In this document: positions 6,154 to 15,409 of the stretch, piece after piece
Numbering within the stretch: the first letter of the stretch is position 1
Layout: each line of letters opens with the position of its first letter
Source of the DNA: Salipiger sp. CCB-MM3
GTDB taxonomy: Bacteria > Pseudomonadota > Alphaproteobacteria > Rhodobacterales > Rhodobacteraceae
NCBI RefSeq assembly: GCF_001687105.1
Contig: NZ_CP014597.1
Location: 1-64,000, forward strand
Length of the DNA: 64,000 nucleotides
Direction of reading: 5' to 3'
Program-made: the position numbers and the translations under genes
The notes under the pieces: generated by a model
The model's input: only the letters and a program-made list of their open reading frames with translations
Databases searched by the model: none
What the model was told of the DNA's origin: nothing

Positions 6154-6499
6154 TACGTGCCACTCGAGAGCGACATGGACCTAGGCACAGCGGCAGTTGA
6201 GTGCCTGGCGAATGAGGCTGACGTCTTCAACTCGCGAGCCAGGCGTCGACCAAGCGGTCGAGCGCCGCCCAATCAGTATACTCCTTGTCGCTATCGAGAT
6301 GTGCCTCAGGGTCCTTCATCGCGATGATCCGGCGCATCACGAAGCGTCTGAATAAGTCGTATTCGTGTGGGCGGTAGGCGCCGGCAATCTGTTCGGTATG
6401 GCCAGGCTTCCATCCTGTGGCGTCCGAAAAGTCGTCCAAGACCCTTTACAGGCCTCGCCAGTCCTCGGCGTCGGTGACCGGCCGCCGAAAGAGAGACCG

Positions 6500-6507
6500 A
6501 AAGAAAA
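6500..6507. repeat. Target-site duplication, left copy
   Basis: AAAGAAAA directly abuts the outer end of the left terminal inverted repeat and is repeated in the same orientation at 7181-7188. Confidence 0.85.
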
Positions 6508-6533
6508 GGGGGTGTCCGCAAATCGCGTTGGTT
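6508..6533 (+). repeat. Left terminal inverted repeat of the ccdAB element
   Basis: It matches the reverse complement of 7155-7180 with mismatches only at positions 3, 16 and 19 from the outer end. Confidence 0.85.
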
Positions 6534-6540
6534 TCGCAAC

Positions 6541-6831
6541 CTAAACGCCCGCCATGAGGACATCGACAGCTTTCGTGACGAGATCACCCTGGTCTGCGAC
6601 CGTCCCGACGCGGCGCAAACCCGCCCGTCGAACAGCCGCAATCAGCCTCGTGGCAAGGACCAAGTGCTGGCCGTCATGCTCGAGTTCGGGGTTCAGATGC
6701 CGGACCGCCGGGTAGTTGGGAAGGAGAGGAATGACGACAACGGCAGGATCAGGCGGTAGCAGTTCGCTTTCGACCGTGACCATGAGAACGCCGTTGTATT
6801 CCGCGACATCGAACCGGCTCAACTCTTCCAT
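6541..6831 (-). CDS. ccdB: CcdB-type gyrase-poisoning toxin
   Basis: The 96-residue protein has the length and pattern of CcdB. It contains VVVIPLLPNYPAVRHLNPEL, then HLVLATRLIAAVRRAGLR, and a C-terminal helix DLVTKAVDVLMAGV. CcdB binds the GyrA subunit of DNA gyrase and traps the cleaved complex, and it is neutralised by CcdA. The start codon at 6831 lies inside the end of ccdA, a 13-base overlap that points to coupled translation. The last residues of family members contact gyrase, and they are present here. The gene sits wholly inside the 673-bp element, so the toxin may help keep that element and its replicon in the population. Confidence 0.88.
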   Translation of the reverse strand: MEELSRFDVAEYNGVLMVTVESELLPPDPAVVVIPLLPNYPAVRHLNPELEHDGQHLVLATRLIAAVRRAGLRRVGTVADQGDLVTKAVDVLMAGV

Positions 6832-7088
6832 GAAGCCCCTCCGGGAGCCGCAATGATGTCAGCCAGAGGGTGCCCGTTTCTCGCGTGCCAATCCGACTGG
6901 GCGGCGAACGCATCCGCATTCTCGGCAAGCCATTTCTCGCGTCGTGCGGCAGCGACCGCCTTGACCAATGCGGCCTCAGCGACGGCGGAGACATTGACTC
7001 CGAGTTCCTTTGCGCAATCGAGCGCCTCAGCATCAAGGGTCAGAGACGTCTTGCGCCGGACTTGAGATACCATGCAATCATACTCCAT
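6819..7088 (-). CDS. ccdA: CcdA-type antitoxin
   Basis: I chose the ATG at 7088 because GGAGG lies 7 bases upstream; a second in-frame ATG at 7073 gives the shorter MVSQVRRKTSLTL. The 89-residue product has an N-terminal ribbon-helix-helix segment (RKTSLTLDAEALDCAKELGV, then NVSAVAEAALVKAV). It also has a toxin-binding tail with NADAFAAQSDWHARNGHPLA. The family binds its own promoter and wraps CcdB with the flexible tail. It overlaps ccdB and is the first gene of the pair, the usual ccd order. Confidence 0.88.
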   Translation of the reverse strand: MEYDCMVSQVRRKTSLTLDAEALDCAKELGVNVSAVAEAALVKAVAAARREKWLAENADAFAAQSDWHARNGHPLADIIAAPGGASWKS

Positions 7089-7100
7089 ATCGATACCTCC

Positions 7101-7128
7101 ATTATATACCGCCGCCAACATGACACAA
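7101..7128 (-). promoter_or_regulatory. Candidate ccdAB promoter
   Basis: On the minus strand TTGTGT (7123-7128) and TATAAT (7101-7106) are 16 bases apart and directly precede ccdA. A start site about 7 bases after the -10 would fall downstream of the GGAGG at 7096-7100, so either transcription starts a few bases earlier or another promoter serves the ATG at 7088. Confidence 0.35.
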
Positions 7129-7154
7129 GACCTCGAACGCCGAGGCCTCAGGTC

Positions 7155-7180
7155 AACCAACACGGTTTGCGGACACCTCC
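7155..7180 (-). repeat. Right terminal inverted repeat of the ccdAB element
   Basis: Read on the minus strand from 7180 inward it gives GGAGGTGTCCGCAAAC, matching the left end. It is followed outside by the second AAAGAAAA. Confidence 0.85.
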
Positions 7181-7188
7181 AAAGAAAA
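7181..7188. repeat. Target-site duplication, right copy
   Basis: AAAGAAAA is identical to 6500-6507. One further A run follows, which accounts for the extra T in the disrupted flavodoxin reading frame. Confidence 0.85.
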
Positions 7189-7743
7189 AAGCGATGGCAT
7201 GCGATTGAGGCGATCGACTTCCTGTGCGGCAAATTCTGTAAGTGATCTCTGATATTCGTTGGCGTGTACGGAGGCGGCCAGAACCACTCGGTCGAAGCTT
7301 CCCAGGTCGATGTCCAGGGCTTCGATCAAAGGTATCAGTTCGACCGAGTTGCCAGCGTCAATGATCTGAGCTGCGACGAGACGGGCGATTTTTCGTGTCT
7401 GGCCTTGGTGTGTTGCGTAGCCGATCAGGACCTTCATCTCGCGCCTCCAAGCAATGCGAATTGATGGCGTCTCCTAGCCCAGACGAACTGGGCCGGGACT
7501 ACCTGATAATGAAGCGGTCAGGGGCCCTTGTCCTTGAGGAGCATCAAGATGCAAAGGCTCCGACAAATTTGAAAACCCGCTCAGTTGTAGGTGCACACAC
7601 CTGACCGCGGGCGCCCAGTCGAACTTCCGACAATGTCCCCAAACTCATCGCGAGGAAGCCCTCAAAGAAACCGGGGAGCAAATCCGGAAACTTTCGTGAA
7701 ATCGCTCATCTGTATCCCACAGGCAAAGGAAAGCAGGGATGCT

Positions 7744-8847: not shown

Positions 8848-9018
8848 ATGACTGACAAAAACGAAGACACCAAGCCAGCTGATGAGGCTCAGGAGCAGGA
8901 AAAGGGGCAGGGCGCGCGCGAGCGTTTCATGAGCCCGGCTCAGCGCAAGCTTCTTCAAGGCGGCATCGACAGTTTGAAGAAGAACGGACCTGCCTATGAC
9001 ATTCTCAAGAACCGATGA
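8848..9018 (+). CDS. 56-residue putative partner (antitoxin) of the Doc/Fic protein
   Basis: The frame runs MTDKNEDTKPADEAQEQEKG at the start, then a helical MSPAQRKLLQGGIDSL, and ends at 9018. It overlaps the start of the Fic/Doc gene by 23 bases, an arrangement typical of antitoxin-toxin pairs. The sequence does not resemble Phd (no N-terminal DNA-binding domain is visible), and I do not see the inhibitory S/T-x-x-x-E-G/N motif of VbhA-type antitoxins. The assignment rests on position, size and overlap only. A disordered charged N-terminus and one predicted helix pair would fit a small toxin-wrapping peptide. Confidence 0.5.
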   Translation: MTDKNEDTKPADEAQEQEKGQGARERFMSPAQRKLLQGGIDSLKKNGPAYDILKNR

Positions 9019-9487
9019 CATCGCAATAGAAGACCAATTTGGCATCCCGGATGCCTACACCTTGGAAGTGATCCATGACATCGAGCTTGAGCGCTCGGGC
9101 GGCCTATCTGGCCTTCGAGAGCCCAACCTGCTGGAGTCCGCTGTGGGGTCGGTGATCACCGCAATGAGCTTTGATCCTGGGATGGATCAGGTCGATGCCG
9201 CCGCGAAGCTGGCCTTCGGCATCATGAAGAACCACCCCTTCGCCGACGTTAACAAACGTACCGCTCTCGCGGCAGCGGAAATGACCTTGAAAGGCGCCGG
9301 ATACGAAGTGGTGGCAGACCCGGAAGAGCTGGCGGATGCGATCGTGGACTTCGCGGCTAATGCCAAAGGCTATGAGCCAATTTCAGAGTGGCTTCGCGCG
9401 CATCTCGAGCAAAATCCAGAGTTCTGCCTCGGTGACGAGGCAGCTGAGTTGAAGGTGGCATCGCTCTCAACTGATTACCGTTACTGA
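8996..9487 (+). CDS. doc: Doc-type toxin (Fic domain)
   Basis: The 163-residue protein has the Doc/Fic arrangement. A loop with GGLSGLREPNLLESAV is followed by helices and then the catalytic motif HPFADVNKRTALAAAEM, with the catalytic histidine at residue 80. Doc phosphorylates elongation factor EF-Tu, while other Fic proteins transfer AMP. The NKRTA form here is Doc-like rather than the AMP-transferring GNGR form. It is about 35 residues longer than P1 Doc at the C-terminus. It begins inside the preceding 56-residue gene, its likely antitoxin. Confidence 0.82.
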   Translation: MTFSRTDDIAIEDQFGIPDAYTLEVIHDIELERSGGLSGLREPNLLESAVGSVITAMSFDPGMDQVDAAAKLAFGIMKNHPFADVNKRTALAAAEMTLKGAGYEVVADPEELADAIVDFAANAKGYEPISEWLRAHLEQNPEFCLGDEAAELKVASLSTDYRY

Positions 9488-11570: not shown

Positions 11571-11792
11571 ATGAAACCCAAAGTCTACTCGAAACCAAAC
11601 TGTGTGCAATGCACGGCGACCACGCGGGCCCTCAAATCGAAAGGCATCGACTTTGACGTCGTGGATCTGTCTGAGGATGCAGAAGCGATGGCCGAGGTCA
11701 CGAGCCTCGGGTACCGTCAAGCACCGGTTGTGATGGCTGGTGAGGTGCACTGGTCCGGCTTTCGTCCCGACAAGATTGCGCAGATCGCCTAA
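11571..11792 (+). CDS. nrdH: NrdH glutaredoxin-like electron donor
   Basis: The 73-residue protein has the redox motif CVQC (residues 11-14) and the C-terminal WSGFRPDKI that marks NrdH and separates it from ordinary glutaredoxins. NrdH takes electrons from thioredoxin reductase and reduces the class Ib reductase NrdE. AAGGAAAG lies 7 bases before the ATG. It heads the operon nrdHIEF, with an 8-base gap to nrdI. Confidence 0.93.
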
Positions 11793-11800
11793 CGCGTCCA

Positions 11801-12199
11801 ATGAGCGAGATCGTTTACTTCTCATCTCGTTCTGAGAACACGCATCGCTTTGTGCAGCGCCTCGGCCGCAAAGCGATGCGTATCCCGCGCCTGCCAGCTG
11901 AGGACCTACCAGAAATCTTTGAGCCCTATGTGCTCTTCACGCCGACCTTTGCCGATGGTGAGGGCCGTCATGCCGTGCCGCGACAGGTGATCCGCTTTCT
12001 CAACGATCTTGAAAGACGACGGCTGCTACGTGGGGTGATTGCGTCGGGCAATCGGAACTTTGGCGAGACCTTCGCCATCGCAGGCAATGTGGTGGCTCAG
12101 AAGTGCCAAGTGCCGCTGCTCTACTGTTTTGAACTTGCGGGGACCGATCGTGATGTTGCCCGTGTAAATGAAGGACTGAATGAATTTTGGAAAAGTTGA
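11801..12199 (+). CDS. nrdI: NrdI flavodoxin
   Basis: The 132-residue protein shows the NrdI pattern. [16 protein letters not shown] is the FMN phosphate loop, followed by [12 protein letters not shown], then [20 protein letters not shown] and [11 protein letters not shown] near the end. NrdI supplies oxidant to build the dimanganese-tyrosyl radical of NrdF. It overlaps the start of nrdE by 13 bases, so translation of the two is probably coupled. Confidence 0.93.
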
Positions 12200-14337
12200 A
12201 TTTTGACACCGAGCATACGTCGACTGAAGGGCAGGGGCTCGACTACCACGCTCTGAACGCCATGCTGAACCTCTATGACGCTGATGGAAACATCCGCTTC
12301 GATGCAGACCGAGAGGCCTCACGGCAGTACTTCCTGCAACACGTGAACCAAAACACCGTCTTCTTCCACTCACTGAGCGAGAAGCTGCAGTACCTGGTCG
12401 ATGAAGGCTATTATGAGCCGGAAGTGCTCGAGCAGTACGAGCCGGAGTTCCTGCAGTCAATTTGGGATGAAGCCTATGACCAGCGCTTTCGTTTTCCGAC
12501 CTTTCTCGGGGCCTTCAAGTACTACACCTCCTACACTCTGAAAACACGTGACGGGAAGCGTTACCTCGAGCGCTATGAAGATCGCGTTGTCATGACTGCG
12601 CTGGCCCTTGCGCGCGGCGATGCTGATCTTGCGCGCCTGTTTGTCTCCGAAATTCTCGCCGGCCGTTTTCAGCCGGCAACGCCGACTTTCCTGAACGCCG
12701 GCAAGAAGAGCCGCGGTGAGCTGATCTCCTGCTTCCTTTTGCGGGTCGAGGACAACATGGAGAGCATCGGCAGGTCGATCAACTCGGCGCTGCAGCTTTC
12801 CAAGCGTGGGGGCGGTGTCGCGCTCATGCTGACCAATGTCCGAGAGACCGGTGCACCCATCAAGGGGATCGAAAATCAGTCTTCGGGCGTGATCCCGGTC
12901 ATGAAGCTCCTCGAGGATAGCTTCTCCTATGCAAACCAGCTCGGCGCGCGCCAAGGGGCAGGGGCCGTCTACCTGAACGCCCACCATCCGGACATTCTGA
13001 AATTCCTGGACACCAAGCGTGAGAACGCGGACGAGAAAATCAGGATTAAGACGCTCTCGCTCGGCGTGGTCATTCCAGACGTGACCTTCGAGCTGGCGAA
13101 GCGCAATGAGCCCATGTACCTCTTCTCGCCCTACGACGTCGAAAAGGTCTACGGCGTGCCGTACTCAGAGATCTCGGTCACGGAGAAGTACGAGGAGATG
13201 GTCGAGGACAAACGCATTCGGAAGACCAAAATCAACGCGCGGGAGTTCTTCCAGACACTGGCCGAAATCCAGTTCGAAAGCGGCTACCCTTACATCATGT
13301 TCGAGGACACCGTGAACGAGGCGAACCCGCTCGCAGGCCGGGTCACCATGTCGAACCTCTGCACCGAAATCCTTCAGGTCGCCGAGGCGTCCGAGTTCAA
13401 CGCGGACCTGAGCTTTTCGAAGATGGGGGCAGACATCTCCTGCAACTTGGGGTCGCTGAACATCGCCAAGACCATGGATGGCCAAGACCTTGGGCTTACA
13501 GTCATCGCTGCTATCCGGGCTCTCACAGCGGTCTCTGAAATGTCAGCGATCGACTCCGTGCCTTCAGTCCGCCGCGGCAACGACGATAGTCACGCGATCG
13601 GCCTCGGACAGATGAACCTTCACGGCTTCCTCGCACGCGAGCACATCCACTACGGCAGCGAAGATGGTGTCGAGTTCACGTCGGTCTATTTCGCGGCGGT
13701 CGCCTATCATGCAATCCGTGCTTCGTGCGATCTCGCCAAAGAGAAAAGGGCCACCTTCAAGGGCTTCGAGAACTCTGCCTATGCCGATGGCAGCTTCTTC
13801 GAGAAGTACGTCACCCGAGATTGGCTTCCTACGCGAGAGCGCGTGAGCGAACTGTTCGAGTTCATCAGTCTGCCCACCAGGGCTGAGTGGGAGTCTCTGA
13901 AAGCGGATGTGATGAAGTTCGGTATCTACAACCGGAACCTCCAGGCGGTGCCTCCGACGGGCTCGATCAGCTACATCAACAACTCGACCTCTTCGATCCA
14001 CCCGATCGTGTCCAAGATCGAAATCCGCAAGGAAGGCAAGATCGGCCGTGTCTATTACCCGGCGCCGTTCATGGACAACGACAACCTCGAGTACTATCGC
14101 GACGCCTATGAGATCGGCCCAGAGGCGCTGATCGATACCTATGCCGCGGCGACCGAGCACGTCGATCAGGGGCTGTCGATGACGCTTTTCTTCCCGGCGG
14201 AGGCTACCACCAGGGACATCAACAAGGCGCAGATCTACGCGTGGAAGAAGGGGATCAAGACGATCTACTACATCCGCCTGCGCCAAGCGGCTCTGGAAGG
14301 CACTGAGGTCGAGGGCTGCGTCTCCTGCAGTCTCTGA
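12187..14337 (+). CDS. nrdE: Class Ib ribonucleoside-diphosphate reductase, large subunit
   Basis: At 716 residues it has normal NrdE length. The start is TTG at 12187, with AAGGA 11 bases before it; the ATG at 12180 is in another frame and stops quickly. Active-site cysteines are visible in [19 protein letters not shown] and ISCNLGSLN, corresponding to the redox pair and the thiyl-radical cysteine. The phosphate-binding segment [15 protein letters not shown] is present. The swinging-arm pair is the C-terminal EGCVSCSL. The enzyme reduces ribonucleoside diphosphates to deoxyribonucleotides with NrdF. The gene lies between nrdI and nrdF. Confidence 0.95.
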
Positions 14338-14401
14338 TCTGCCCGATCACCAGCGCGGCCCCTGGGCCGCGTTTCCCCCGGGCCTGCTCGTTTCCGTCTG
14401 A

Positions 14402-15409
<1,008 letters not shown>

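Follow-up and report, generated by a model that had tools for sequence, protein, structure and literature searches.

Within the first 64,000 nucleotides of contig NZ_CP014597.1 of Salipiger sp. CCB-MM3 (hereafter the window, meaning that whole stretch), the 673-bp segment at positions 6508-7180 is very probably a mobile insertion cassette that belongs to the IS1595 family of insertion sequences (IS) and is non-autonomous, with the toxin-antitoxin operon ccdAB as its cargo. The segment shares its ends with IS1595 elements, is flanked by an 8-bp target duplication, contains coding cargo and no transposase, and has copies at different sites in other genomes. A first-pass annotation of the window had already read it as mobile, and comparison across genomes supports that reading. 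The boundaries are:

6508..6533, plus strand: inverted repeat on the ccdB side, 26 nt, an IS1595-type end (the same ends bound IS1595 transposase elements)
7155..7180, minus strand: inverted repeat on the ccdA side, 26 nt, from sequence comparison and a genome pattern search
6500..6507, no strand: target duplication, left copy, 8 bp, AAAGAAAA, from the sequence and flank comparison
7181..7188, no strand: target duplication, right copy, 8 bp, AAAGAAAA, from the sequence and flank comparison

The two repeats match at 23 of 26 positions, the exact 8-bp direct repeat AAAGAAAA abuts both of them without a gap, and ccdA and ccdB, each of which passes its Pfam cut-off, are the only genes inside; the first-pass description of the element is thus confirmed to the base. 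An 81-bp leader, ccdA, ccdB and a 7-bp tail are placed directly between the two ends, and the whole element occurs once in its own genome. A degenerate pattern of the 26-nt end, searched with up to 3 mismatches, has no match in the 5.52-Mb genome other than these two, and the reversed control has none at all, which argues that the pair of ends is not due to chance.

The insertion lies in a gene whose two parts flank it:

7181..7437, minus strand: flavodoxin (HemG-type) gene, 5' part; PF12724, 57.1 bits; colinear with the intact homologue L140:1252-1779
6227..6507, minus strand: flavodoxin (HemG-type) gene, 3' part; Flavodoxin_5, 20.2 bits over 6439-6227, below the cut-off of 27

Both flanks match Flavodoxin_5 (the 3' part below cut-off), as expected of the HemG-type halves that the first reading had placed on either side. 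Among 20 genomes of the genus, one (G015) shows about 71% identity to the 3' part as far as the insertion point and a second (G013) matches a portion of it; the homologues in these genomes are open reading frames of 175 and 186 amino acids, respectively, without the element. Once the element is excised together with one of the two 8-bp repeats, the window gene is colinear with the G015 gene over its full length, small length differences aside. The two homologues serve as substitutes for an empty site. The G015 gene sits in another genomic setting. The window gene has further lesions besides the insertion, comprising length changes and an in-frame stop, and is therefore a pseudogene.

Copies of the element occur at other sites. 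The copy in Phaeobacter sp. 22II1-1F12B (L089) is 96% identical over the element and has a duplication matching at all 8 positions, that in Salipiger bermudensis HTCC2601 (L090, also retrieved as L007), of the same genus as the window genome, is 84% identical with a duplication of 7/8, and that in Pararhodobacter sp. CCB-MM2 (L096, also L046) again has a duplication of 8/8, as does the window copy. Decayed copies with two ends were found in Marivita, Pseudosulfitobacter, Roseovarius and a Yoonia metagenome bin, with duplications of 6/8 (L094), 4/8 (L097), 3/8 (L113) and 2/8 (L093). Of the eight copies with two ends, seven measure exactly 673 bp and one 674 bp. When the window copy was compared with the three other well-bounded copies, the genes were 80-99% identical and the 150-bp flanks 25-28%, the level expected by chance; homology among the copies ends at the inverted repeats. 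From a 3-kb Phaeobacter stretch only the element matches the window genome (15 of 137 first-look candidates scored), and a search of 61 genomes gave matches in three: the window genome itself, G019 (an 84% copy that starts and ends within the repeats) and G010 (two isolated ends). The same 673 bases are thus not fixed at one place in all relatives; the copies sit at separate locations, between unrelated sequences and with duplications of their own, and the target gene has a homologue that is not interrupted.

The cargo consists of two overlapping genes and their leader:

6541..6831, minus strand: ccdB toxin gene, 96 amino acids; PF01845, 39.6 bits against a cut-off of 28.6; predicted CcdB fold
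6819..7073, minus strand: ccdA antitoxin gene, 84 amino acids; PF07362, 62.4 bits against a cut-off of 22.4
7074..7154, minus strand: leader between ccdA and the repeat; TATAAT box at 7101-7106, minus strand, read from the sequence

The antitoxin gene comes first and the overlap is 13 nt. A scan for sigma-70 pairs returned no promoter-like site in the ccdA leader; the TATAAT box at 7101-7106 may serve as the ccdA promoter. By family profiles and the predicted CcdB fold the pair is assigned to the type II CcdA/CcdB toxin-antitoxin systems. The NCBIfam profiles gave no match to CcdB and a match to CcdA under its cut-off, and a search of the PDB with the CcdB sequence gave none at E 0.01. The predicted CcdB structure has a mean predicted local distance difference test score (pLDDT) of 89.2, and its 12 top PDB matches are CcdB structures, with MazF following; the best match to a solved CcdB has an E value of 2.3e-05 and a template modeling (TM) score of 0.83, the top matches being CcdB of the F plasmid and of V. 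fischeri.

One may postulate that the ccdAB genes are inert, hitch-hiking passengers with no toxin activity, and the C-terminus of CcdB lends this some weight. The gyrase poison of the F plasmid ends in W-G-I, and its residue corresponding to the position before the invariant penultimate glycine is the tryptophan that stacks on gyrase. In 27 aligned CcdB rows this position is A, S, V, T, G or H and never tryptophan, and the window protein ends in A-G-V; gyrase is therefore a putative target. We nevertheless consider inert passengers unlikely. Neither the ccdA nor the ccdB frame contains a stop codon in any of 34 loci (fixed-length frames), the protein has the predicted CcdB fold, and the ratio of nonsynonymous to synonymous substitution (dN/dS) across the four well-bounded copies is well below 1, at 0.04-0.13 for ccdA and 0.00-0.19 for ccdB, although these are rough values given the Nei-Gojobori method and the short genes. 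Such ratios indicate that ccdAB is under purifying selection and that the operon is selectively maintained.

The ends themselves place the element in the IS1595 family. In G010 a 5052-bp element (L008) has ends like those of the ccdAB element, with the duplication AAATTTTT, and encodes an ArsR-type regulator, a flavin adenine dinucleotide (FAD)-dependent oxidoreductase, a major facilitator superfamily (MFS) transporter (ArsK model, below cut-off) and a transposase (L008:8542-9546) that scores 132.3 bits with NF033547 against a cut-off of 75, its Pfam IS1595 match being slightly below the Pfam cut-off. A 5358-bp element of Phaeobacter sp. 22II1-1F12B (L156) has the same type of ends and the duplication AATTTCTA (8/8); its transposase, of 335 amino acids, is open and 93% identical to the reference transposase. 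The 96% ccdAB copy and an IS1595 element whose transposase is open thus coexist in this genome. Judged by sequence, the inverted repeats are IS1595-family ends. A Tn3-type origin of the ends was rejected, given the 8-bp duplication and the fact that elements bounded by these ends encode an IS1595 transposase.

A 20-nt core of the end was searched with up to 2 mismatches. It occurs in 5 of 20 genus genomes (reversed control, 1 hit), in 46 of 394 family genomes (11 control hits in 10 genomes) and in 2 of 386 class genomes, namely the window genome and one other, where 7 control hits put the result at chance level for that draw. As the reversed controls also match, single end hits are partly chance; pairs with duplications are not. 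Forty stretches were taken from among the listed end hits; in these, the window, L007 and L008, 25 of 29 pairs of ends were accepted for counting. Addition of L089 and L156 makes 27 repeat-bounded elements. The four pairs set aside are second choices in L053, L056 and L066, whose selection had rested in part on the duplication, and a 9.5-kb pair in L059 that has none. With ends held fixed, the duplication reaches 7/8 or better in 21 of the 27 elements and is complete (8/8) in 12, whereas combining left and right flanks of different elements gave 7/8 or better in 30 of 702 cases; L071 scores 2/8 on this basis, though 8/8 if one end is moved by one base. The duplicated bases are 83% A+T.

A match to an IS1595 transposase, in some cases a remnant, was found in 15 of these 27 elements. 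The other 12 have none, four carrying ccdAB and eight other cargo; the main genes of seven of the latter comprise four with no Pfam match, two with matches below cut-off (DUF2711 and glyoxalase) and one with a prokaryotic STING domain. Within this one bacterial family, the repeats therefore bound IS1595 transposase elements both with and without passenger genes, as well as transposase-less elements with other cargo. The first-pass annotation had called the ccdAB element MITE-like, a label that does not hold. Miniature inverted-repeat transposable elements (MITEs) are short IS derivatives without coding cargo; here the interior is the ccdAB operon and only 25 bp per end are shared with the Phaeobacter IS1595 element, so that mobile insertion cassette is the fitting term.

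Several other members of this group were also noted. A second toxin-antitoxin pair lies at L048:500-2427, between IS1595-type ends with the duplication TAATGTTT (8/8), where a RelE-family toxin (PF06296, 133.6 bits) and a helix-turn-helix (HTH) antitoxin candidate accompany the element's own transposase. The transposase-less element at L071:2686-5356 encodes a prokaryotic STING-domain protein (PF20300), a small membrane protein matching PDC-M50A, a phage-defence candidate, and a third small gene. In L056, a transposase-less element of 562 bp (838-1399) and one of 1580 bp with a transposase (1409-2988) lie 9 bp apart, both flanked by T-rich duplications. In a single genome, G134, there are four short elements that lack a transposase (L066:3137-4027, L067:4950-5500, L068:4796-5411 and L069:2955-4024), each with one main gene to which no function is assigned (one weak DUF2711 match); that in L066 is without a clear duplication.

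An alternative scenario is that ccdAB was captured in an IS1595 element that later lost its transposase, in which case the unit is a decayed transporter IS and not a cassette moving as such. Elements that combine a transposase and passengers between the same ends do exist, including the RelE/HTH pair of L048, and L054 keeps a transposase remnant. We consider this scenario improbable, however, given that there is no transposase match within the 673 bp and that comparison of the interior with the Phaeobacter element reveals nothing in common beyond the 25 bp at each end; moreover, the constant length of 673-674 bp implies that the unit was already free of a transposase before it spread.

The distribution of the ends among relatives of ccdAB was assessed by a CcdB-alignment scan of the species-genome collection, based on word patterns and confined to close relatives, which gave 31 loci; the window and two plasmid loci raise the number to 34. 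Ends on both sides at the expected offset, with up to 6 mismatches in 20, are present at seven loci (the window, L089, L090, L093, L096, L097 and L113). The ends of L094 have 8 and 4 mismatches, and four loci (L101, L103, L104 and L117) have the right end only, with 3-7 mismatches. Of the 72,556 records in the plasmid collection, 3 gave a match, and the two with complete genes have no ends. A tree of CcdA and CcdB places the four well-bounded copies in one supported group (97/90) and the other end-bearing copies in a second, weakly supported one (90/75), among one-ended and endless loci. Given the near-identical length and offset in both groups, we infer a single capture with later decay of the ends where the cassette had settled.

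Several of our results weigh against an interpretation as a mobile cassette. No matching end was found on either side at 22 of the 34 ccdAB loci, and a CcdB match was present in 19 of 394 evenly drawn family genomes, of which 2 had both ends, 1 had one and 16 had none (up to 5 mismatches); the module thus does not depend on the element, and the idea that the ends are a general feature of ccdAB relatives was rejected on these counts. Clustering of the end-bearing loci on the tree is not significant, since the two changes required were equalled in 91 of 500 shuffles, and the tree is therefore no proof that these copies have a single origin. The CcdB residue discussed above belongs here as well. 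The uninterrupted congener homologue of the flavodoxin gene has about 71% identity over the 3' part, and no pre-insertion allele at the same site in a close strain was found among the 20 genus genomes searched. Finally, searches of the window genome by end pattern and by transposase produced no partner element and no intact IS1595 transposase of this kind, but only a damaged fragment of 34% identity with two stops, so that present-day movement in trans is at most conjectural there. G019, G438 and G439 had no IS1595 transposase match at E 1e-5; the same search gave one partial match in G264 (56%) and three in G437 (28-52%). The fragment in the window genome (L152, G000:C2:285992-286336) has an end-like sequence with 4 mismatches in 20 about 80 bp before it.

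The pattern might instead reflect plasmid transfer with homologous recombination, or vertical descent, with no transposition and with the ends as fossils. The window copy does lie on a plasmid-type contig, and L093, L097 and L113 have decayed ends and no clear duplication; yet the flanks are unrelated between copies, four copies retain duplications of 7-8 of 8, and beyond the element the Phaeobacter stretch had no match in the window genome among the candidates scored, all of which makes this account very improbable. That two unrelated solo ends flank ccdAB by accident, or are the remains of two IS copies in a composite transposon, is scarcely credible: solo ends are common, with many end hits lacking a partner in the retrieved stretch, but the same spacing and the same offset from ccdB recur with duplications in several genera, and across the 34 loci such an end is expected at a random place at a rate of about 0.0003 with up to 6 mismatches and 0.0013 with up to 7.

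The window contig is 315,806 bp long. It carries a RepA-type initiator (RPA-type; L161:6806-8107, about 267 kb along contig G000:C3; PF10134, 115 bits against a cut-off of 27) and is therefore most likely a plasmid; it gave no RP-C match. About 1.8 kb from the cassette, a Fic/DOC-family gene at 8996-9487 of the window (PF02661, 39.5 bits) is possibly another addiction gene on this plasmid-type contig, which also bears, at 11571-15409, a glutaredoxin gene, a small intervening gene and both subunits of ribonucleotide reductase.

For a mobile insertion cassette of this kind, we infer that movement would take place in trans: an IS1595 transposase supplied from elsewhere, such as that of the Phaeobacter element, would recognise the 25-26-bp ends and insert the cassette into an 8-bp, usually AT-rich target. 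CcdA would neutralise CcdB and repress its own operon, and upon loss of the plasmid or the cassette the labile CcdA would disappear and CcdB would attack its target (gyrase by analogy), which would amount to addiction. The pair could thereby protect each site that it enters from loss, and the cassette could carry the pair between replicons. That the cassette holds its replicon is at most plausible, given the plasmid RepA-type initiator on the contig. We tentatively suggest a broader interpretation, which is less secure than the identification of the cassette: a minimal addiction transposon, that is, a self-protecting, selfish IS1595 cassette with an addiction module as its whole cargo, each insertion of which might make a replicon costly to lose and which might persist after the transposase is gone. 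Since such ends also enclose the RelE/HTH pair with its transposase and a candidate defence gene with a STING domain, this IS1595 group might more generally ferry toxin-antitoxin and defence genes within the bacterial family. Toxin-antitoxin pairs are scattered in bacterial genomes and their route of arrival is usually unclear; here a vehicle for ccdAB is visible: its ends are defined, duplications mark its target sites, elements that may act as helpers exist, and the target gene has a homologue free of the insertion. With this cassette one can ask directly whether such a pair transposes as a unit in its own right, whether every plasmid becomes more stable once the pair has entered it, and whether cassettes outlast their transposase on account of addiction.

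Among known systems, the ccdAB operon of the F plasmid and the CcdB of V. fischeri share the CcdB fold, and the F operon has the same order of antitoxin then toxin in overlapping genes; these CcdB proteins differ from ours in having about 20-25% identity in structural alignment and another residue before the last glycine. Mobile insertion cassettes (MICs) carry cargo between IS ends, and MIC231 of Bacillus cereus belongs with IS231, an IS4-family element; the ccdAB cassette differs from it in its IS1595 ends and its cargo. The portions of PMC3129680 drawn on here describe MICs as IS relatives without their own transposase that can be activated by a cognate transposase, as proposed for the ccdAB cassette. 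IS1595 elements with passengers are a known kind (PMC5704250 and PMC3129680). They include the transporter IS tISCpe8 and MTnSag1/tISSag10, described in the sections of PMC5704250 used here as having 25-bp ends, 8-bp duplications and a preference for AT-rich targets, with which our elements agree; these two encode their own transposase and a lincosamide-resistance gene, whereas the ccdAB cassette has no transposase and a toxin-antitoxin operon.

According to the excerpts of PMC7157771, toxin-antitoxin pairs occur in 39 of 190 Tn3-family transposons, which resemble our element in placing a type II pair on a DDE transposon but differ in that the pair lies mostly in the transposition module beside res, that the ends are 38-40 bp, and that the five toxin families named in those excerpts do not include CcdB. 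Tn3-derived miniature elements (TIMEs) are likewise non-autonomous and presumed to be moved in trans, but have Tn3 ends, 5-6-bp duplications and, in simple TIMEs, a core without open reading frames (PMC4133298, in part). Toxin-antitoxin systems are reported to select against MITE-made plasmid deletions in the part of PMC6354349 considered; neither this part nor those of PMC3281130 and PMC7371123 shows a toxin-antitoxin cassette with IS1595 ends, and a literature search that covered few subscription papers and did not include ISfinder gave no ccdAB or other toxin-antitoxin cassette with such ends among the matches listed. Passenger-bearing IS1595 elements and Tn3 toxin-antitoxin transposons are therefore known; a toxin-antitoxin pair as the sole cargo of a transposase-less IS1595 cassette is apparently new within the literature covered.
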